Shown one piece after another: positions 3,091-43,936 of a stretch of 43,936 nt of DNA. A program made the translations under genes and the position numbers. The notes beneath the pieces are model-generated. The model was not told the DNA's origin and searched no databases. It saw nothing but the letters and a program-made list of their open reading frames with translations. Each line of letters opens with the position of its first letter. Position 1 is the stretch's first letter. The DNA is taken from positions 1-43,936 of IMG/VR virus record IMGVR_UViG_3300003885_000032; one strand, given 5' to 3'. This DNA is from a virus.

Positions 3091-4413
3091 ATGGCCATTA
3101 TTTACGTCGATTCGAATGCAGCGGGATTGAACGACGGCACCAGTTTTGTGAATGCTTTCACCACACTGAATGCCGCTTCTGCGGTTTTTGTGGCGAATGA
3201 TGAATGTTACATGGCACACAATCACAGTGAAGTGAGTGCCGTGACATTGAGTATTACGTTGGGCAATACTTCTTTGGCTGACTTGATGAAAATCACACGG
3301 GTCAACAGTAGTACTGAGCTTTACAGTCCGACCAATGGATCAGATACCAATGCTTTTGATATCACAGGGGCTAATTCTGATTTAGAACTTCGAGGGGCGA
3401 TGAGCTGGACGGGGGTTAAATTTAACGTTGAAGATGACATTAAATTTAATTTTGGGGGGAACAATCAATTTACGGATTGTCACTTTACGTTGTTTGGTTC
3501 CTCTGGTCGTTTTTTGTTGGATGATGAAATTGCTTTTTCTCGATTCCTTAATTGCACTTTTGATTTTACCCATGCATCCGGTTCGTTTATTCAGTTAGAT
3601 GCCTCTCCACAACTGATCGGCTGTACTTTTTTGGGCAATGTAGTGTCGGCAGGACTGTTCCAAAGAAATGCGGCAGGAAGAAACATTGATATGGTTTGTC
3701 AGGGTTGTGATTTTTCTCAATTAACCCATTTGTCTAATGGCCCATTAATTGGGTTTGCGGGGGCAGCGTCTAGAAAATTTAAAGTGAAATTGGTCAATTG
3801 TCGCATGAAAACCGCTGTGCCAGTGGGAGATGCGATGACGAATGATGATCAAAGCTATGCTTTGGAGGCCAGTGATGATGGCAGTAATAATGATTACAAT
3901 GAGAAAACTACTTATCGTGGCACTTGGTCAACCAACAAATTAACTTACTACTTAGCCACGGATGCCTACACCGATAGTGATACGGCCACACCATTAAGCC
4001 ATGAGTTGGTGCCTGTTGCCGAGGTAGGGATAGCGAGTGGGTTGTTGGGCGATAAATTTTTAGCTCGATTAGATACCCTCGGAGCAGCGACGTTGACAGT
4101 ACAGGGCTTGGAGAATTTCACCACGGCTTTGACTCAACGGGATTGTTTTCTGTTGGTGTCGTATTTGGGGAATGGTACGACGACGCAGCATCAAGTGGAT
4201 TCGCAGCAAGAAACGGCTAAACCCACTTATACAGCCCTAGCTGCTGGGTCAGGATTGGGTAATTGGAATGCGCCTCCTGGCAGTTCACGGTCTATTCAGT
4301 TAACGGCAGCCATCACAAATACCAAGATTGGGCTGTACTCGGTACAAGTCGTGTTGCATCAATACGAGTTGGGTCGAAGCTTGTTGGTGAACCCTGTGGT
4401 TACGGTGACATAA
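3091..4413 (+). CDS. Beta-helix-like virion protein, copy 1
   Basis: A 440-residue, Ser/Thr/Gly/Asn-rich protein paralogous to the product of 5387-6739. Both begin MAIIY, share a YSPT.GSDT motif near residues 75-80 and share a C-terminal ENFTTALT.R domain. The middle has short repeating strands with aligned C.F and F.NCTFDF motifs, as in right-handed parallel beta-helix proteins. The ribosome site is GGGAGGAAAA. No catalytic motif is visible. Its place between the capsid and tail-connector genes suggests a surface head fibre, decoration or receptor-binding role. The fold and role are inferences; the duplication is directly visible. Confidence 0.65.
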   Translation: MAIIYVDSNAAGLNDGTSFVNAFTTLNAASAVFVANDECYMAHNHSEVSAVTLSITLGNTSLADLMKITRVNSSTELYSPTNGSDTNAFDITGANSDLELRGAMSWTGVKFNVEDDIKFNFGGNNQFTDCHFTLFGSSGRFLLDDEIAFSRFLNCTFDFTHASGSFIQLDASPQLIGCTFLGNVVSAGLFQRNAAGRNIDMVCQGCDFSQLTHLSNGPLIGFAGAASRKFKVKLVNCRMKTAVPVGDAMTNDDQSYALEASDDGSNNDYNEKTTYRGTWSTNKLTYYLATDAYTDSDTATPLSHELVPVAEVGIASGLLGDKFLARLDTLGAATLTVQGLENFTTALTQRDCFLLVSYLGNGTTTQHQVDSQQETAKPTYTALAAGSGLGNWNAPPGSSRSIQLTAAITNTKIGLYSVQVVLHQYELGRSLLVNPVVTVT

Positions 4414-5048: not shown

Positions 5049-5387
5049 ATGCGTAATCGCAATTTAGCATCGATCAAGCGTTATCAGCCAGGGGATTATT
5101 TAGCGGTCTGTGATGTGTGTGGCTTCACGTTTTATGCGAGCCAATTGTCGCTCACTTACCGCAACACCCGTGCTTGTGAGCGTTGTTTTGAGGTGCGTAA
5201 TCCGCAAGAGTTTTTAGTGCGCCAACCCAGCGGCATTAGACCGCCCTGGACGCGGCCCAAAGCCTTGGTGGATGATAACGCGGGAGTGATCCCTTACCAG
5301 TTCGCAGGCTTAGGCATGTTTTTAGAAATCGGTGGGACTCAGGGGTTTAATATTCCAGGGTTTGGTATTTTTACAGGAGTGGATTAA
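5049..5387 (+). CDS. Zinc-finger-like virion-associated protein
   Basis: A 112-residue protein. I place the start at the ATG at 5049, one base after the previous stop; an upstream in-frame ATG at 5004 would lie inside the previous gene. Two CxxC pairs, CDVC and CERC, are spaced about 26 residues apart, followed by RNPQEFLVRQPSG. This layout is widespread in small phage structural-region proteins and should bind one zinc ion. The C-terminus is Gly/Phe-rich (GLGMFLEIGGTQGFNIPGFG). The TAA stop overlaps the next ATG (TAATG). Role unknown, probably virion assembly. Confidence 0.7.
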   Translation: MRNRNLASIKRYQPGDYLAVCDVCGFTFYASQLSLTYRNTRACERCFEVRNPQEFLVRQPSGIRPPWTRPKALVDDNAGVIPYQFAGLGMFLEIGGTQGFNIPGFGIFTGVD

Positions 5388-6739
5388 TGGCCATTATTTA
5401 TGCCTACTCTGGCGCAGTGGGGGCCAATGCTGGCACGAGTTGGGCCGATGCTTATACGTCAGCCGCGACCGCTTACAATGCTTGGACGGTGGGGGATGAA
5501 GTCTGGGTGGCGGATGATCATACCGAGTCAGTCACAGGGACTCACAATATTGGGGCAACCAATAGCAGCATCAATAATAACATTGTGATTTATCGCATGA
5601 ACCGAGCGACAAATACTTATAGTCCGACCACGGGTTCAGATACTAGACAATATAACTTAACCAGTTCAGGGGCTGACCTACGATTTTCTGATGGCTCACT
5701 TGATTTATATGGTTTGATGGCAGGGTTTTTCTTTGCAGCCTTTGATAATATTTCACTGCGTTATAGTAACTGCCATCAGAATATGATTGATTGTTATTTT
5801 GAATTAAATGATAGCGGTTCTCGGTTTGAACTGGGTAATGCAGGATCACAAATTGGTAGTACCTACACCACATTTTTACGTTGTACTTTTGACTGGACAG
5901 TCTCAGGTGGTCAGCTAAGACAAGAAGGCAATGTTATTAGGATGACAGATTGCGTTTTCAAAGGAAGTGCTGATCCTAACGGATTATTCCGTGTGGCGGA
6001 TGAACAAGATACGCAGGTTTATATTGTGGGTGGTGATTTCTCTCAAATGACTTCGATGCCTGTTTTAGTGAATGTGGATGATGGTGATCCAGAGACCAGT
6101 AGCGTCTGGCATTTTATCGCCTGTAAATTGCCAGCAGGACAGGTGATTCATACTGACGAATTTGCTTCAGATGGTTGTTTTATTTACCTCCACAATAGCA
6201 GTGATGGGAATAAAACTTACGTCTCGGCTCGCTATGGATTGCGAGGGGATGTGGAGATTGATCTCACCACGTTCTATAACGGGGCGAATCATTATATCGA
6301 CATTGATGGGGCTAGGTCGCTGTCTCATAAGATGACGATTAAAGCCAACACAACCTTGGCGAATGGGTTGGCGTCACTGGAAATATACGGTCGGTTTGCT
6401 GGCACCGGGGCCAAAACACTAAGCCTGGAAATACTAGAAAACTTTACTACAGCACTGACCAAGCGTGAGTGTTGGCTTGAAGTGATGTATCTAGGTGAGT
6501 TAGATTCCACTCGCTGGATCAGTGCCGAAGACCGAGAAATGGCTGGACTCACTTTCACCGATTTATCGGCGGGGGCAGGGATTTTGAAATGGTTAATCCC
6601 TCCCGTGGGGGCAAGGTCGGTCAAAGTCTCAACCACGATTAACGTCGTCAAAGCCGGATCATACCGAGCGGTATTGCATGTCGCTAAGTACGAAGCCGGT
6701 AAACAAGTTAACTACAACCCGAAAATCGATATTACTTAA
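5387..6739 (+). CDS. Beta-helix-like virion protein, copy 2
   Basis: A 450-residue paralog of the product of 3091-4413. It has the same MAIIY start, a YSPTTGSDTR motif at about residue 80, a middle of short strands including FLRCTFDWT, and the same C-terminal domain (LENFTTALTKREC, then PPVGARSVKV and YNPKIDIT at the end). It is preceded by AGGAG and overlaps the previous stop by one base. Sequence divergence is substantial, so this is an old duplication or two different adhesins sharing ends. It is likely exposed on the virion. No catalytic residues are obvious. Confidence 0.65.
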   Translation: MAIIYAYSGAVGANAGTSWADAYTSAATAYNAWTVGDEVWVADDHTESVTGTHNIGATNSSINNNIVIYRMNRATNTYSPTTGSDTRQYNLTSSGADLRFSDGSLDLYGLMAGFFFAAFDNISLRYSNCHQNMIDCYFELNDSGSRFELGNAGSQIGSTYTTFLRCTFDWTVSGGQLRQEGNVIRMTDCVFKGSADPNGLFRVADEQDTQVYIVGGDFSQMTSMPVLVNVDDGDPETSSVWHFIACKLPAGQVIHTDEFASDGCFIYLHNSSDGNKTYVSARYGLRGDVEIDLTTFYNGANHYIDIDGARSLSHKMTIKANTTLANGLASLEIYGRFAGTGAKTLSLEILENFTTALTKRECWLEVMYLGELDSTRWISAEDREMAGLTFTDLSAGAGILKWLIPPVGARSVKVSTTINVVKAGSYRAVLHVAKYEAGKQVNYNPKIDIT

Positions 6740-25082: not shown

Positions 25083-25133
25083 TTATCCTCGTTATCCACA
25101 AGTTATCCACAAGTTATACACAGGTTATCCACA
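25083..25133 (+). promoter_or_regulatory. Phased DnaA-box array (probable ori)
   Basis: Four boxes follow one another every 11 bp: TTATCCACA at 25092-25100 and 25103-25111, TTATACACA at 25114-25122 and TTATCCACA at 25125-25133. An imperfect box, TTATCCTCG, lies at 25083-25091. These match the E. coli DnaA consensus TTATNCACA, and the spacing equals about one helical turn. This layout marks origins that recruit host DnaA. Confidence 0.85.
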
Positions 25134-25476
25134 GGTAAGTGGCACAATTTATCATTTCTTCAGACGGTCAAAAAATGATCGGATTCAACCGTTGCTTTAT
25201 ACACCGAATTCCGTGTTAATATCCACCATAACGCCTAATATTTTTATTGACATATTAATCAGATTACTTCACGACCTCTAACGTCAATGCCGACGTGCAT
25301 GAAACTTACCTAAATGCTAACGTCTGCGTTGACCGGGCCATTATTATCGATTAAAAATTCATCATATTAAATGAAAATATGAGATTTATAAGACAGATAG
25401 AGGGGTAACTTGAAGCGGTTTGTGAAGATCACAAAAGCATCAATTCAGCTTAAATAGGACGGTATTTTTCCTGTTT

Positions 25477-25689
25477 TTACTGATTATTCTCATTTTCTGA
25501 TTTATTGTTCATTTTTTCGAGAGGGAAATCCTCGGTGGTTTTTAATAGGAAATAGTGAATGTAAGCATTTACTGACAGCTTTTCTGAAATCTGTGGATAA
25601 CTTTTTTTACAAACGGCTAGGTGCAGTGGCCAATTAATTGAGTTATTTTCATTTATTTTTACGAGCATCGGTCTTTTTTTGATAATCAA
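25477..25689 (-). CDS. Small protein next to the origin (uncertain start)
   Basis: A 70-residue frame from a TTG: IIKKRPMLVKINENNSINWP, then LHLAVCKKSYPQISEKLSVN and AYIHYFLLKTTEDFPLEKMN. The later part reads like a real protein. However, the only good ribosome site (AAAGGTG) leads to an ATG at about 25700 in another frame, which stops after 16 codons. Dropping one A from the A7 run near 25674-25680 would fuse the two frames. So this may be a broken gene, a sequence error or a TTG-started gene. Function unknown. Confidence 0.35.
   Translation of the reverse strand: MIIKKRPMLVKINENNSINWPLHLAVCKKSYPQISEKLSVNAYIHYFLLKTTEDFPLEKMNNKSENENNQ
25592..25600 (-). promoter_or_regulatory. Additional consensus DnaA box
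   Basis: TGTGGATAA is a perfect reverse-strand TTATCCACA about 470 bp to the right of the array and faces it. It lies inside the small minus-strand frame 25477-25689. It may help looping of DnaA or titrate it. Confidence 0.6.
25658..25686 (+). promoter_or_regulatory. Sigma70-like promoter for primase-helicase operon
   Basis: TTTACG (25658-25663), 17-nt spacer, GATAAT (25681-25686). The -10 matches five of six consensus bases. It ends 47 bp before the ATG at 25734 and points at the primase. No other candidate is as good in this gap. Confidence 0.5.
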
Positions 25690-25733
25690 CCATACTCATT
25701 TGCACCTTTTGTTAAAAAGTGAGTGAGTATTGC

Positions 25734-26774
25734 ATGCAAAATTACGTAAAAACATTATTTAGTGACAGTGAATTGGTGGAATTGCGAGTCATGAATGCGC
25801 AATATGTGACCGCTGGCATCTATGACAACCCCGACCATTTGATGAACGCAGTGTCATACTTGAAGAAAACGGATCAATATTTGGGCATTTACACGACTTT
25901 AAATCGGCCTGATCCCCAATATTTCACGTTTAAAAACCAATTAAACCCCAAAACCCGCTCAGTAAAAGATCAAGATATCACCCACATTCGTCGTATTCCG
26001 TTTGATTTTGATCCGGTGCGTGACAAAGATACCAATGCCAATGCGCATCAAGTGAGCCTCGCTTTGCAATCATCGAGCTTATTATCACAATGGTTAACGC
26101 AACGCGGTTGGCCCAAACCGCTGACAGCCATGAGTGGCAATGGGGCACATTTACAGTACCGTTGTGCCCTCGAATCCACGCCAGCATTAGCCCAAGCCAT
26201 GACCAAAATCTATCAGTCGTTGGCGAAAATGTTCGAGAGTGATTTGGTGCATTTTGATCAAAAAGTCTGCAACCCCTCGCGCATCTTTCGCCTCTACGAC
26301 ACGATCAACCGCAAGTCACCCCATACTGAGACTACCCCCCAACGCCAAGCCATTTGCCACCTACCCCAACCGTTTTTACCTGTCACTGAAGCCCAACTCT
26401 TAGACTTAGCCGACTACCTCGACCTCACGGAACCCACCGTATTGCACTTGCCCCATGCCCCACAGTTGAGGCAGAAAGGCGATTGGACAAACCAGAAAGG
26501 CGATTATCGTACTTTGGATATTGTGTCGATGTTGACCGACATGGGTTTGTATAAACGCTCGATGGGCCAAGGCAAGCATGCCGTTTATTGTCCGTGGGGA
26601 ACGGATCATTCTACAACACAGAAAAAAGCCACGACTGACACGATCATTTGGGAGAAAAGTGGCGATGCTTGGCCACAATTTCATTGCAGTCACAACAGTT
26701 GTCAAAGTCGTAATATCGTGTCGCTGATTCAACAGGTGGGTACGATTGAGGTGGTGAGCTATTGCCAATCGTGA
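25734..26774 (+). CDS. DNA primase, archaeo-eukaryotic type, with C-terminal zinc motif
   Basis: A 346-residue protein from the ATG at 25734 (an in-frame GTG at 25719 has no ribosome site). It shows the three AEP signatures: IPFDFDP at about 89-94 (metal-binding D-x-D), AMSGNGAHLQYR at about 132-143 (S-x-H-like nucleotide motif) and KVCNPSRIFRLYDTIN at about 177-192. The C-terminal part has Cys/His clusters (YCPWGTDH, then FHCSHNSCQS) expected to bind zinc. It would make primers for replication at the nearby origin. It overlaps the helicase gene by 13 bp. Confidence 0.8.
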   Translation: MQNYVKTLFSDSELVELRVMNAQYVTAGIYDNPDHLMNAVSYLKKTDQYLGIYTTLNRPDPQYFTFKNQLNPKTRSVKDQDITHIRRIPFDFDPVRDKDTNANAHQVSLALQSSSLLSQWLTQRGWPKPLTAMSGNGAHLQYRCALESTPALAQAMTKIYQSLAKMFESDLVHFDQKVCNPSRIFRLYDTINRKSPHTETTPQRQAICHLPQPFLPVTEAQLLDLADYLDLTEPTVLHLPHAPQLRQKGDWTNQKGDYRTLDIVSMLTDMGLYKRSMGQGKHAVYCPWGTDHSTTQKKATTDTIIWEKSGDAWPQFHCSHNSCQSRNIVSLIQQVGTIEVVSYCQS

Positions 26775-28437: not shown

Positions 28438-29241
28438 TTAGTAACCATTTAACTCAGCGGTTAATTCATCTATCAAGGTTTGTTTGCGTTCAGCAATTGT
28501 TTTCCTAACGGGTTTAATGGGAGTATGCAACGGATTATGTGGCACAGGCTGATGCACGGCTGATGGTATTAAATAATGTGGCAGCGTTTTTGGTTTAGGC
28601 TTAGGTACAGGTACAACCGCCACCAGTTTTTTCTTGCTGGGCATTACCGCCGCGAGTCGTTCCATTGATCCTTGATCAAAACCGGGTTTGCCACTGTGTT
28701 TAAGGAAAAAAGTTTCTTCAGATAGTTTTAAGCTCACCGTTAGATCAAGATCTATTTTTACGAAAAATGGTGAGGTAGCATGAGTACCCCACGTCATCAA
28801 GTAGGTGCGTAGCAGTGGATTAAATTTCATTTGGCTGGGATCTGATGCCGGTTGACCTAGCAGCAAGGCTAATTGTTGTAGCAATTCAATGGCACACTGA
28901 ATGAGTACCGCTGATTGATGCGCGTACTGTTTAATGTGTTGTTGCAGTTTTAGATTCGTTCGACGATTAATCACGCAATTATCAACAATGGCTTGAGCGT
29001 TGACGGGCAAGTAACAACGCAATTGTAATTCACGTACCGTCTCTTTAACCGCTTCAGCATACTTAATACAGCCCGTGTAGTACCAGACTTTACCATTGAG
29101 CATGACCTGATAGCCACGCCATTTTTTGTTGGTACTCTCAACTAGAGTAAGTCCAAATCGCTCAAGCGTTGAGGTAGTGTTGTACTTAAATGTACCCATT
29201 CTAGTGACTTGATCATTGTATCTGAACGCGGGTAAACTCAT
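28438..29241 (-). CDS. RCYLP-family protein A, unknown function
   Basis: A 267-residue protein, one of three paralogs in a row. Shared features are a first strand-turn segment (LERFGLTLV), W53YYTGC58, then an A-rich helix leading to RELQLRCYLP (70-79) and a helical segment ending IELLQQLALLL. A C-terminal beta part (TYLMTWG, FVKIDLDLTVSL) also aligns with the paralogs. It alone has a basic, Pro-rich tail (PKPKPKTLPHYLIP) after residue 200. ATGA couples it to the upstream paralog. No known domain is recognised. It could be a host-takeover or anti-defence protein, but that is speculation. Confidence 0.65.
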   Translation of the reverse strand: MSLPAFRYNDQVTRMGTFKYNTTSTLERFGLTLVESTNKKWRGYQVMLNGKVWYYTGCIKYAEAVKETVRELQLRCYLPVNAQAIVDNCVINRRTNLKLQQHIKQYAHQSAVLIQCAIELLQQLALLLGQPASDPSQMKFNPLLRTYLMTWGTHATSPFFVKIDLDLTVSLKLSEETFFLKHSGKPGFDQGSMERLAAVMPSKKKLVAVVPVPKPKPKTLPHYLIPSAVHQPVPHNPLHTPIKPVRKTIAERKQTLIDELTAELNGY

Positions 29242-29807
29242 TTTAGTCGTTCCAAAATATCTTCAAGACCATCATAATCATTGATGATTTTCGTCTTGTC
29301 TTGATAGTGTGCGGTGATGACATCATCGTCATGGATGCGCAACATAATACGAGTCCAAAACAGCGAGTAGGTGGACTGATGCTTGTCAAAAATGGTGAGT
29401 TTAGGGGACTGAATCGTGTCACAAGCCACAAAAATGAGTCGATTAAATAACGCATAGGCTTTTTGGATATGTACCGCTGTTAATGCACCATACCGAGTAA
29501 TGTCACTCTGCAATAGTTTGACGGTATCAATAGATAAAATTAACTCAGCGTAAATTTCGTTAACCGGCAGCGGCAAATAGCAACGTAATTGCAATTCACG
29601 CATGGTTTCCGTGAGCGCTTCTTCACGGTCGGTGCAGTTAGTCGTGTACCAAACTTGATTTTGATGCATAACGACATAAGTTGCATCAATCCAAATCAGA
29701 TTGAGATTGAACGATTTTAAAATATTTAATTGAGTACGAGAGACGGAAAAAGAAGATTGATCTGTAACTAAATCCCCAACACGGTCTCCCACTGTGACGT
29801 TTTTCAT
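29238..29807 (-). CDS. RCYLP-family protein B, unknown function
   Basis: A 189-residue protein with the same core as its neighbours: ILKSFNLNLIWID, W53YTTNC58, then RELQLRCYLP at exactly the same residues (70-79) as protein A, a helix (ALTAVHIQKAYALFNRL) and a C-terminal beta segment (TYSLFWTRIMLRIHDDD) ending GLEDILERLK. It has no tail and so may be the minimal form. No strong ribosome site is visible before the ATG. A sigma70-like promoter lies 37 bp upstream (29844-29873). Function unknown. Confidence 0.65.
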   Translation of the reverse strand: MKNVTVGDRVGDLVTDQSSFSVSRTQLNILKSFNLNLIWIDATYVVMHQNQVWYTTNCTDREEALTETMRELQLRCYLPLPVNEIYAELILSIDTVKLLQSDITRYGALTAVHIQKAYALFNRLIFVACDTIQSPKLTIFDKHQSTYSLFWTRIMLRIHDDDVITAHYQDKTKIINDYDGLEDILERLK

Positions 29808-29843
29808 GGGACAAAACCATTTTTATTTGTTTAAGATGAGGTT

Positions 29844-29873
29844 AAGATAACAGATCATGGATACAAGTGTCAA
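29844..29873 (-). promoter_or_regulatory. Leftward promoter of the RCYLP A-B pair
   Basis: On the minus strand: TTGACA (29868-29873) within TGTATTGACAC, 18-nt spacer, TATCTT (29844-29849). Another ATATTGACAC copy lies upstream at 29888-29897. The same 11-mer precedes two other promoters of this window. Confidence 0.5.
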
Positions 29874-29911
29874 TACAATGACAAATATGTGTCAATATTA
29901 CGGTGATAATA

Positions 29912-29947
29912 TTAATCAACTTATCTTGATAAAAATAAGTTGATTAA
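29912..29947. repeat. 12-bp perfect inverted repeat upstream of RCYLP promoter
   Basis: TTAATCAACTTA (29912-29923) and TAAGTTGATTAA (29936-29947) flank a 12-nt loop that itself carries TTATC/GATAA. It follows the stop of the upstream paralog and precedes the promoter. No T-run follows on the minus strand, so an operator is as likely as a terminator. Confidence 0.5.
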
Positions 29948-29973
29948 GAGAATGGCTGGTGTTGATAAGATAA

Positions 29974-31002
29974 TTAACTACTTGCGACGTTCAGCACTGT
30001 ACTTTGATTTTCCGCCAAGGCTTGCGCTACTTGACTCAATCCACTGTACAAGCTGATGCTTTGCCAATCGCCGTCTTTTTGATAAAGCAATGTGCCGTCA
30101 AGATCGATTAATATTTCAACATCTTGCCATTTTATCTTGTACGTCATGACATTTTTGTTGATCTCGATCAAGGACGGTGGCGGCAAGGGAGTATCAAGCA
30201 AGGGATCAAGTCGGTTAAATACGTCATAAATTCGTTCAATCGCTTTGGCCGTGGTAGCGCCATGCTCATTGATTTGTTGTTGCAAGTACTCGTGTGTTAA
30301 CCAGTCGACATGGGTATATTCGACAATCTCATCGTATGACGTGGGCAAGTAGCAACGCTCTTTTAAGCAGTTAATGACCGCATCCAGTGCATCGTCGTAG
30401 TCCGCACAACCTGTTTTTACCCACCACTTAGTGCCATCCGGTACGCCATAAGTTTCGTCAAAAATAGGATCGACAATATCCAGTTCAAAACCAAAATCGG
30501 CCAAAATTGATGCTTTTTCCTCAGTTGAGTAATATTTTGGATCGTTTGATGCCGGTTTAGGTGTAACGGTAGCCATGGTTGCAGATAGAGGTTGAGGGAT
30601 GGTGGGACCAACACGCGGGACATGATCAAGCATGACCGCTGGGATTGGGACGTGTTGCCCACCGTGTTTTATTTTAGCACAATTTTCCATGGCTGCTTGA
30701 TATCGGTGGATGACTGAGATTAAAGGGGCTAGATCATACGGTTGGGGTAACCAGTGGGCTAACCAAACTTGACAATGACTAGCATCGTCACAGGTTGAAT
30801 TAAAGTAGCTAGCTAAAAAACCGTGGCAACTCACGTTGATGATGAGTGAGTGGTGGTGGACTTGCCACATTAGCAATCGTGATTGATCCGTCTTTTTGAT
30901 TTGATCAGTCATTGGTAGTGCAACGCAATGGCTAACAGCGTCAATGATAAACTGTACGTTTTCGTTAATCGCTTTTTGTACGGTGTTGGTCTGATTTTGC
31001 AT
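29974..31002 (-). CDS. RCYLP-family protein C with N-terminal extension
   Basis: A 342-residue protein. Residues about 160-342 align with proteins A and B: ILADFGFELDIVD, W194VKTGC199, AVINCLKERCYLP (208-220), ATTAKAIERIYDVFNRLDPL and TYKIKWQDVEILIDLDG. Residues 1-145 are a separate, His/Trp-rich region (LLMWQVHHHSLIINVSCHGF) not found in A or B. GGAG lies 10 nt before the ATG. The domain may bind a ligand through Cys and Trp. No known family is recognised. Confidence 0.65.
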   Translation of the reverse strand: MQNQTNTVQKAINENVQFIIDAVSHCVALPMTDQIKKTDQSRLLMWQVHHHSLIINVSCHGFLASYFNSTCDDASHCQVWLAHWLPQPYDLAPLISVIHRYQAAMENCAKIKHGGQHVPIPAVMLDHVPRVGPTIPQPLSATMATVTPKPASNDPKYYSTEEKASILADFGFELDIVDPIFDETYGVPDGTKWWVKTGCADYDDALDAVINCLKERCYLPTSYDEIVEYTHVDWLTHEYLQQQINEHGATTAKAIERIYDVFNRLDPLLDTPLPPPSLIEINKNVMTYKIKWQDVEILIDLDGTLLYQKDGDWQSISLYSGLSQVAQALAENQSTVLNVASS

Positions 31003-31025: not shown

Positions 31026-31220
31026 TTAAGATTCGTTTTCAAAAAGTTCAGTAAGCGCTTGTTCAATGATTTCAGCTTGTGAACGCTCATCATCTTTTAT
31101 TAACTCAATAAGATGAGGTGGCAAGCGTATGCTAATCATTTTCTTGCGTACGCTAGATGATAAACGTCTAGCGCCTCTTTTTTGTGGAACGGGTACTTCA
31201 TTTCCAAAGAGAATTCTCAT
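31026..31220 (-). CDS. Ribbon-helix-helix DNA-binding protein
   Basis: A 64-residue protein. After a basic N-terminal tail (KRGARRLSSSVRKK) comes MISIRLPPHLIELIK (28-42), the strand and first helix of a ribbon-helix-helix fold, then ERSQAEIIEQALTELFEN, the second helix. Proteins of this kind dimerise and bind palindromic operators with the beta strand. The TTGAT-ATCAA palindromes or TGTATTGACAC sites in this window are candidate targets, but nothing proves it. It is encoded just upstream of RCYLP protein C. Confidence 0.75.
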   Translation of the reverse strand: MRILFGNEVPVPQKRGARRLSSSVRKKMISIRLPPHLIELIKDDERSQAEIIEQALTELFENES

Positions 31221-34471: not shown

Positions 34472-34512
34472 GCTGCTATCCCCTTGTTGTGTATTGACGT
34501 TGTATTCTCTAG

Positions 34513-34552
34513 TTGATATATCAATTGTACATAAGTTAATCAAGAGTGTCAA
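34513..34552 (-). promoter_or_regulatory. Strong leftward sigma70-like promoter with palindromic operator
   Basis: On the minus strand: TTGACA (34547-34552), 17-nt spacer, TACAAT (34524-34529). The -35 matches six of six and the -10 five of six. The 12-bp palindrome TTGATATATCAA (34513-34524) touches the -10 and the start point, a classic repressor position. The extended -35 TGTATTGACAC occurs at two other promoters. Confidence 0.75.
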
Positions 34553-34564
34553 TACATTTTTCAC

Positions 34565-35486
34565 ATTTATTTATATCTTTATTGCATACTATGTATATGT
34601 AGCAATATGTGTATTGACATTGAAAGTTGTATGGTCTTTGGAGATCAGGGTAGATGGACTTGGGCTTAGTCTAGGTCTGAATTGGGCTTGGTCTGAGTCT
34701 AAACCTAAATACCTTGTGGTGTAGATGGGATTAGGAGATTAAGGGTTAACAGTAGGATGTGGCACTTGTGGTGTTGAGAGGGGCACTGAGGTGGTGTTGG
34801 GTAGGTGGATGGGTAGCGTGCCTTGGTGGGCATTGTGTTGGGTATTTGATGGGTTGATGGTGTGGAGTGGTGAGTGGTTGTGGTGGTTAAATTGGGGAGG
34901 GGGTTGATTTTGTTGGGGGGGAAAATGTGACCAAAAGTGTCACTGTCCGATAATGAACACTTTTCATTCCTGTCAACTACTTTCTCATCGGCTTGAAAAT
35001 AGGCTATCTTCTTGCGCTTAAGCTTTAGGCTGAGACTAAGACCCATTCAAAATCAAGCACTTGCAATATATTTAATGAGAGCTAGACGCATTCCACACAG
35101 GGGAGTCGTCCCACCGAGTCACCCCACCGTCACCCCTTACGTGAGATTAAACCCCTACCCTTGGGGGGGGTACCACGATTGTGATTATGGGAATTAGACC
35201 CAAACTCATATACCACCAAAATACCCCCATTTCAATACCCCCACCACCACTCAGGACTCTCACACCACGGGTAAGCCCTTAATCTCCAATGACCCTAAGA
35301 GCATAATGGGTATATATCATCCACCTTTTTCAGCCCATCCCCAAGCCTCAAAACCCTCAAAACCCCCTCCTACTGGTGAAGCCGAGATCTCCTAAAACCC
35401 TGCTAGTGACGGTGGAATTTGGACCTGTACCACCACCAGAATAGACCCGCTGCACCGAGATAGATACTGGCGCTCAGTAAAAATAC
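34565..35486. other. 0.9-kb noncoding region with strand-composition switch
   Basis: The plus strand is G/T-rich from about 34640 to 34925 and C/A-rich from about 35085 to 35400, with a mixed divider between. Three blocks on the left recur inverted and in order on the right: GGAGATTAAGGG (34734-34745) with 35276-35287, GTGGTGTTGAGAG (34768-34780) with 35257-35268 minus one T, and CTGAGGTGGTG (34786-34796) with 35245-35254. A 25-bp imperfect inverted pair lies at 34679-34703 and 35024-35047. Frames here (such as 34705-35046, minus) are low in complexity and lack ribosome sites. Confidence 0.6.
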
Positions 35487-36497: not shown

Positions 36498-36983
36498 ATG
36501 CCAATAGATTTCTTTGCGTCAAATGCTTGGTGGGGTAGCCATTACCGCTATATTCGCCGATTTCACCGCCAGTGGTTAGTGCGAATTAAGGCACATCAGC
36601 AAAAATTAGTGTATCAGGTTTTCAAAGATGAAGATTATGCGGGGCCGAAGATGGCGTTACGGGCGGCCATGCGGTTTCGGGATCAGGCGGTGGCTGAGTT
36701 TTCGGCCGAGCAGAAGGTGTCGATGCGATTGGGGTATCCCAGGCCCGATCCCAATGCGGGGGTTTTTATGACGACTCGGCAGAAGCCGCGAGGTCATGGG
36801 GTGTATGTGTTAGTGGTGGCTAAGTGCCATAACAAGTTTTTGGGTATTCGTGTCACCAAATCATTTTCGGTGGGGGAGAAGCGAAGCAGGGAGGAGGCAT
36901 TTGCTTTGGCGAGACGGTGGCGCATTAAGATGATTGAAGATTATCAAGCAATGGCGATACAAAAAGGGATGATAAAATTGTAG
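36498..36983 (+). CDS. AP2-like DNA-binding protein (two repeats)
   Basis: A 161-residue basic protein with two AP2-type units: residues about 30-68 (KLVYQVFKDEDYAGPKMALR, then AAMRFRDQAV) and about 105-155 (FLGIRVTKSFSVGEKRSREE, then AFALARRWR). Each has three short strands followed by an A..A..(F/W)R helix, as in phage and plant AP2 domains, often fused to HNH nucleases. No HNH residues are present, so it is likely a stand-alone DNA binder. No strong ribosome site is seen before the ATG. The gene is plus strand in a minus-strand block. Confidence 0.65.
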   Translation: MPIDFFASNAWWGSHYRYIRRFHRQWLVRIKAHQQKLVYQVFKDEDYAGPKMALRAAMRFRDQAVAEFSAEQKVSMRLGYPRPDPNAGVFMTTRQKPRGHGVYVLVVAKCHNKFLGIRVTKSFSVGEKRSREEAFALARRWRIKMIEDYQAMAIQKGMIKL

Positions 36984-36992
36984 ATGAATGTA

Positions 36993-37021
36993 TTGACACT
37001 TTTGGTTAAATATTGCATAGT
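36993..37021 (+). promoter_or_regulatory. Rightward sigma70-like promoter with no gene behind it
   Basis: TTGACA (36993-36998) inside TGTATTGACACTT, 17-nt spacer, CATAGT (37016-37021). The -35 is perfect and the -10 matches four of six. No plus-strand gene follows until 38015; only hairpins and a terminator (37626-37677) do. Confidence 0.6.
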
Positions 37022-43599: not shown

Positions 43600-43936
43600 A
43601 TGATAGAACCGTTGGGATATACCGTTTTGATCCAGCCAGAAACGATTGAAACGACCAGTGCAGGGGGCATTATTACGGTGCTTGAAACGCAGGTGGATCA
43701 GTTAGAAAGGGCATCCATTTGTGGCAAGATTATCGCGATTGGGCCTATCGCTTGGCAGCGTGAGGAATGGCAGTTCGAGCCGTGGGCGAAGGTGGGGGAT
43801 ATGATTTTATTCGCCAAGTATGCCGGTGCCACCGTTATCGATCCCGCCACGGGTGAGAAGTATATTTTGATTGCGGATGAAGATGTGAAGTGCCGTTATT
43901 TGGGGGGGCAAGGGAGTGAGTCAGCGAGTGTGGATT
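43600..43936 (+). CDS. GroES-like co-chaperonin, 5' part (continues at window start)
   Basis: The first 112 residues, starting at the ATG at 43600, give MIEPLGYTVLIQPETIETTS, then AGGI near residue 21-24 (mobile-loop position) and KVGDMILFAKYAGATVI near 66-82, the typical GroES core strand and GD turn. Phage co-chaperonins replace or modify host GroES so that capsid proteins fold. Lying beside the head genes fits. The gene runs off this window end and finishes at 59-61 after joining across the 11-bp repeat. No strong ribosome site is visible. Confidence 0.8.
   Translation, partial: MIEPLGYTVLIQPETIETTSAGGIITVLETQVDQLERASICGKIIAIGPIAWQREEWQFEPWAKVGDMILFAKYAGATVIDPATGEKYILIADEDVKCRYLGGQGSESASVD
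43926..43936. repeat. 11-bp end overlap of the circular genome
   Basis: GAGTGTGGATT at 43926-43936 equals 1-11. Joining the ends over it keeps the GroES-like frame open. This is best read as the overlap left when a circular or circularly permuted genome is written out linearly, not as a biological terminal repeat. Confidence 0.85.

Follow-up and report, generated by a model that had tools for sequence, protein, structure and literature searches.

The window analysed here is the whole of IMG/VR virus record IMGVR_UViG_3300003885_000032, a 43,936-base record of an uncultured tailed phage, and our subject is a set of three adjacent minus-strand genes, A, B and C, between positions 28,438 and 31,002. 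A preliminary description made from the DNA letters had presented them as a new paralog family, and open reading frames (ORFs) are present for all three on the strand it had given:

28438..29241, minus strand: gene A, ORF of 267 amino acids (aa), characterised by BLASTP to B and C and by charge.
29238..29807, minus strand: gene B, ORF of 189 aa, the minimal form comprising the core only, characterised by BLASTP and a structure model.
29974..31002, minus strand: gene C, ORF of 342 aa, characterised by BLASTP, a structure model of its core, and charge.

The start ATG of A overlaps the stop codon of B (29238-29241). Pairwise BLASTP related A to B at 34% identity across 149 aa (E 2e-20), B to C at 27% across 179 aa (E 5e-16), and A to C at 30% across 146 aa (E 2e-11), and the Smith-Waterman z-scores against shuffles (31 for A-B, 28 for B-C, and 21 for A-C) outscored every shuffle. 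With the block from W to RCYLP masked, the z-scores were still 7, 19, and 11, respectively, again above every shuffle, indicating that the kinship is independent of the motif. A, B and C are thus genuine divergent paralogs, with 31 invariant columns in their core alignment. Although A and B have RELQLRCYLP in common, it is B and C that form the closest pair once the motif block is left aside. The tandem arrangement with terminal additions was borne out as well: C carries an extra N-terminal part of about 150 residues, and A an extra basic tail (residues 201-267, net charge +7).

All three proteins share the signature W-x-x-T-[GN]-C, exactly 16 residues between C and R, and then RCYLP. It falls at W53, C58, and RCYLP 75-79 in A and B alike, the identical placement reported earlier, and at W194, C199, and RCYLP 216-220 in the C protein; as a DNA-level pattern, W..T.C plus 16 residues plus RCYLP was found at exactly three places in the window, against none in 100 shuffles. 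Some details of the motif as first described need amending. The G/N alternative holds but T is invariant rather than alternating with K, the spacing proposed as 16-18 residues is 16 throughout and never 17 or 18, and the FNRL near which a shared helix was said to end is found in B and C, whereas A reads LQQL there.

We then searched for relatives, using as queries the three-paralog alignment, A, B and C singly, and the profile consensus. Pfam, PHROGs, and NCBIfam gave no family match, and no relative was found among PDB sequences, in phage and plasmid records searched by tblastn, in peptide and DNA pattern scans of IMG/VR, in a pattern scan of GTDB genomes, or in a profile search of 50 viral contigs, 49 of them terminase-related; a profile search of 1,149 sampled whole genomes (369 + 385 + 395) produced no accepted relative. 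Pattern scans reach close relatives only, so relatives of the three proteins may exist. These results, including those from phages and plasmids, agree with the earlier statement that the RCYLP proteins belong to no known family, and we regard them as a real, undescribed, lineage-specific paralog family and a fairly ordinary phage orphan family.

Several candidates were rejected along the way. Matches to a Vequintavirus 'YeeU-like antitoxin' (E about 1) covered a short helix stretch only, had a profile probability of 6%, and were attributed to chance. Of the 15 stretches with the exact W..T.C-16-RCYLP DNA pattern (1 viral, 14 from genomes), not one had a convincing profile score, and the two in frame are unrelated. 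One whole-genome match with an E value of 2.8e-4 (L107) corresponds to about 0.1 expected by chance over the genomes sampled and is without the W, C, and RCYLP, while a second weak one (L106) resembles a response regulator. Pfam and PHROG matches to TMEM131L Ig, DUF742, ParB-like, and RelB-like entries were short, below cut-off, and different between paralogs.

Structures were predicted with AlphaFold from the three-sequence alignment, once with B first and once with C first, A being a row in both alignments; the B and C predictions are built on the same three sequences and are therefore not independent. The B model has a mean predicted local distance difference test score (pLDDT) of 77.5 and a predicted template modelling score (pTM) of 0.64, with residues 1-22 unreliable. 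Its predicted elements, and the two modules that they outline, are as follows:

B residues 21-74, N-module elements: helix 21-32, strands 35-40, 43-48, and 51-55, helix 61-74 (predicted).
B residues 82-106, helical middle: helices 82-88 and 93-106 (predicted).
B residues 108-188, C-module elements: helix 108-128, strands 137-141, 146-150, 155-158, 164-168, and 171-176, helix 181-188 (predicted).
29571..29747, minus strand: N-module of B (residues 21-79), alpha-beta3-alpha with RCYLP at its end, from the model; matches to double-stranded RNA-binding domains (dsRBDs) at Z 3.5-5.1. Equivalents, minus strand: A about 29005-29178, C about 30343-30525.
29244..29486, minus strand: C-module of B (residues 108-188), helix-beta5-helix, from the model; weak matches to Med17 and MotA at Z 4.3-6.0. 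Equivalents, minus strand: A about 28648-28920, C about 29980-30258.

The core of the C model has the same element order as B, and the first 156 residues of C have no confident fold in the model. A common architecture is thus predicted, in which an alpha-beta3-alpha module ending in RCYLP is followed by a helical middle and a helix-beta5-helix module, to which A adds its proline-rich tail; neither model gives any sign that the paralogs have unrelated folds. Every fold match was weak (Z of at most 6, values that according to the tool's guide may reflect a common arrangement only) and too weak for a family assignment from these models. Foldseek against PDB and BFVD returned no match at E ≤ 0.001, and no clear match to a known enzyme or structural family came from the structure or sequence searches. 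The Med17 (Z 6.0), OspA, and polo-box matches of the C-module lie in the same Z range as those to MotA, make no biological sense, and were set aside as a common arrangement. The N-terminal extension of C could also be an extra copy of the C-module, its order of elements appearing similar by eye, but its alignment was no better than shuffles and the model gives it no confident fold.

The N-module resembles dsRBD folds in its size and alpha-beta-beta-beta-alpha order in both models, with matches to DCL4 (9kby, Z 5.1), 1whq (Z 4.7), Loquacious (5npg, Z 4.4), and MLE (5ztm, Z 4.3), and ADAR1 dsRBD3 also among the folds resembling it. In dsRBDs a lysine motif at the entry to helix 2 contacts RNA. 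The helix-2 start instead reads KYAEAV in A, DREEAL in B, and DYDDAL in C, unlike the KKxAK-type motif, and a canonical double-stranded RNA-binding role therefore appears unlikely from the sequences; Pfam matches at E up to 5 included no dsRBD profile.

The paralogs differ most in charge. Core net charge is +8 in A, -5 in B, and -20 in C, and that of the N-module is +4, -1, and -9; whole A has a net charge of +15 and a pI of 9.7, with a lysine/arginine-rich tail, and C is acidic (pI 4.2). Invariant positions are chiefly hydrophobic or aromatic, and no conserved set of charged residues or histidines suggests catalysis, which favours binding over an enzymatic activity. With core charges of +8, -5, and -20, all three are unlikely to share a single ligand (DNA, RNA, or a cyclic nucleotide, for example); an activity common to all would most likely be the binding of proteins, and charges so different suggest that the copies probably bind different partners. 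The invariant cysteines C58 and C76 lie at opposite ends of helix 2 within its predicted boundaries, and the 14-residue helix between them would hold them about 20 Å apart, so that in the model an intrachain disulfide or shared metal is unlikely.

The genome setting bears on when these proteins act. Plus-strand genes of the window form mostly a head and tail module, judging by position and by comparison with the named phages closest to this one in large terminase and major capsid, ct2os315 (MW202796; terminase 51% and capsid 41% identical) and Alcaligenes phage vB_Af_QDWS535 (OK172329; 42% and 44%), both of which are without a detectable A/B/C homolog. The best IMG/VR terminases found were at most 48% identical, marking the phage as isolated, with no close relative. 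On the minus strand, 18.4-24.2 kb holds genes for exonuclease VIII-like, Holliday junction resolvase-like, single-stranded DNA-binding, and recombination proteins, and on the plus strand a primase-like gene and a helicase occupy 25.7-28.2 kb. Beside the replication genes lies another minus-strand block (28.4-34.6 kb), whose genes are small and for the most part without matches, and A, B and C form its end. Phage host-takeover genes usually sit in such small-gene blocks near replication genes, and from position and strand we infer early expression of A, B and C. Three further features accompany the genes:

29844..29873, minus strand: promoter-like TTGACA-18-TATCTT (extended TG) upstream of B, from a consensus scan; candidate only.
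29912..29947: near-perfect palindrome TTAATCAACTTAT-N10-ATAAGTTGATTAA with 13-bp arms between C and B, from an inverted-repeat and half-site search; candidate operator.
31026..31220, minus strand: 64-aa Arc/CopG-like ribbon-helix-helix gene, 23 bases upstream of C (PHROG 3180, E 0.0049; Pfam RHH_1, E 0.0093, below cut-off).

The frequency of promoter-like sites in this region does not exceed that in shuffles. The site before B and another at 34552-34524, upstream of the block, both contain TGTATTGACACT, and variants of the half-site TTAATCAACTTAT lie at 29965-29977 and, with two mismatches, at 34531-34543 in the spacer of the promoter-like site at 34.5 kb. Allowing up to two mismatches, the half-site has 7 matches compared to 1.7 expected, making it a candidate operator shared by two promoters. 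The ribbon-helix-helix protein, not a member of the family, may be a regulator or autoregulator of the block or an antitoxin-like partner, and could possibly repress both promoter-like sites in a putative circuit. Separately, TGTATTGACA occurs in exact copies at four places, along with one TGTATTGACG, on both strands and clustered at presumed promoters (34490-34619, 29868-29877, and 36989-36998); when one mismatch is allowed, the overall number of copies does not differ significantly from that in shuffles.

Taken together, we favour the reading, at a probability of about 0.4, that A, B and C, diversified through tandem duplication, are early, non-enzymatic binding proteins serving host takeover or counter-defence. 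Duplication in the phage lineage would have yielded three copies that are expressed early in infection and contact host (or phage) macromolecules without catalysis, each adapted to its own partner. Contact with nucleic acid would be likeliest for A, whose core and tail are both basic, and binding of a basic protein, which might be A, for the acidic C. Several points weigh against this reading. No homolog of known function was found for any of the three, PADLOC gave no defence or anti-defence profile match (0 families, E up to 5), and early expression and a binding partner are undemonstrated. The two invariant cysteines could allow unforeseen catalysis or metal binding, of five B models a single pair is in good agreement (pLDDT 77.5 and 77.3 versus 58-64), and alignments of three sequences constrain model quality. 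The preliminary description had gone further and proposed diversification against a varying host target, such as anti-defence; early location and duplication suit several other roles too, and although an anti-defence role may apply, its overall interpretation is only partly supported.

The main rival is that the paralogs bind nucleic acid and regulate transcription or replication of the phage: the C-module would grip DNA as MotA does, and the N-module would bind RNA or a polymerase or replication partner. The C-terminal 'double wing' domain of T4 MotA (5jlt, 6k4y, 1kaf), a helix, about five antiparallel strands, and a helix, was matched along almost all of its length by both models (76-78 residues, Z 4.3-5.1; 5jlt_C at Z 5.1 over 77 residues and 1kaf_A at Z 4.7 over 78), dsRBD folds recur for the N-module, A is basic with its lysine/arginine-rich tail, and the genes adjoin a primase, a helicase, and DnaA-box-like repeats. 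However, these Z-scores are tied with those of unrelated folds in the chance-arrangement range, where Med17, OspA, and polo-box score equally; there is no sequence match to MotA and no visible counterpart of its N-terminal sigma-binding domain, the B and C modules are acidic with core charges of -5 and -20, and the dsRBD lysine motif is missing. We consider regulators of this kind possible, if tentatively so.

A more doubtful alternative is that the paralogs act not on three separate targets but as a hetero-complex of basic A and acidic C with B as the neutral core, as opposite core charges (+8 versus -20), adjacent genes with the A/B start-stop overlap, and shared hydrophobic positions would allow. 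Adaptation to different partners explains the charge divergence as well, however, and a second promoter-like site may split C from B and A.

It is very unlikely that the proteins are Acb4-type cyclic-nucleotide sponges, holding CBASS signals in their alpha-beta3-alpha module. The Acb4 protomer has three antiparallel strands with flanking helices (PMC11722364), and the anti-CBASS sponge Acb4 of SPO1 (9e4w) is among the matches of the C N-module, a weak one (Z 3.4, 59/92 residues) that lies below ordinary dsRBDs; there is no sequence match, and the strongly positive Acb4 pocket (PMC11722364) contrasts with N-module charges that vary and are strongly negative in C. Equally improbable is a toxin-antitoxin-like pair, with C, perhaps along with A and B, as a HicA-like toxin and the Arc-like protein encoded 23 bases upstream as its partner. 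HicA toxins share the dsRBD topology (PMC10865869), and HicA-like phage proteins occur at low ranks of the viral fold search; but no profile of HicA or of an antitoxin matched at cut-off, the invariant columns contain no histidine, the proteins have extra modules and are large (189-342 aa) for such toxins, and B and A have no comparable small partner gene.

Other features of the window deserve record. DnaA-box-like TTATCCACA/TTATACACA occurs in four copies in an 11-bp register at 25091-25134, with an inverted copy at 25592-25603, and this cluster upstream of the primase-like and helicase genes is likely, from its sequence and place, a replication origin using host DnaA. The 351-aa protein beside the helicase (25719-26774, plus strand) would by position be a primase (compare PS-1 and YA3); it has no Pfam or PHROG match, and no IMG/VR sequence fits its peptide patterns. 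A 161-aa plus-strand protein (36498-36983) has a sub-threshold match to the AP2 DNA-binding domain (E 3.7e-4), a domain characteristic of phage proteins that are regulatory or resemble homing endonucleases. Two similar-looking plus-strand proteins of the structural region, of 440 aa (3091-4413) and 450 aa (5387-6739), both begin MAIIY and by look are a likely paralog pair. At the window edge (43600-43935, plus strand) a GroES-like co-chaperonin gene begins and is truncated; a gene of this kind follows the portal at the same place in ct2os315 and QDWS535.

A bolder form of the favoured reading is unlikely as it stands: that this is a new two-module family whose copies, tuned by opposite surface charge, disarm several host defence or housekeeping targets singly or as a hetero-complex, in a counter-defence fold combination undescribed so far. 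Unmatched genes abound in the early regions of phages, so the interest of A, B and C is moderate. If they are counter-defence proteins, they would add a fold combination missing from current libraries, and as tandem duplicates within one phage they offer a natural comparison of one architecture in three charge states with different terminal additions, by which shared function and divergent targets would be separable in simple experiments.
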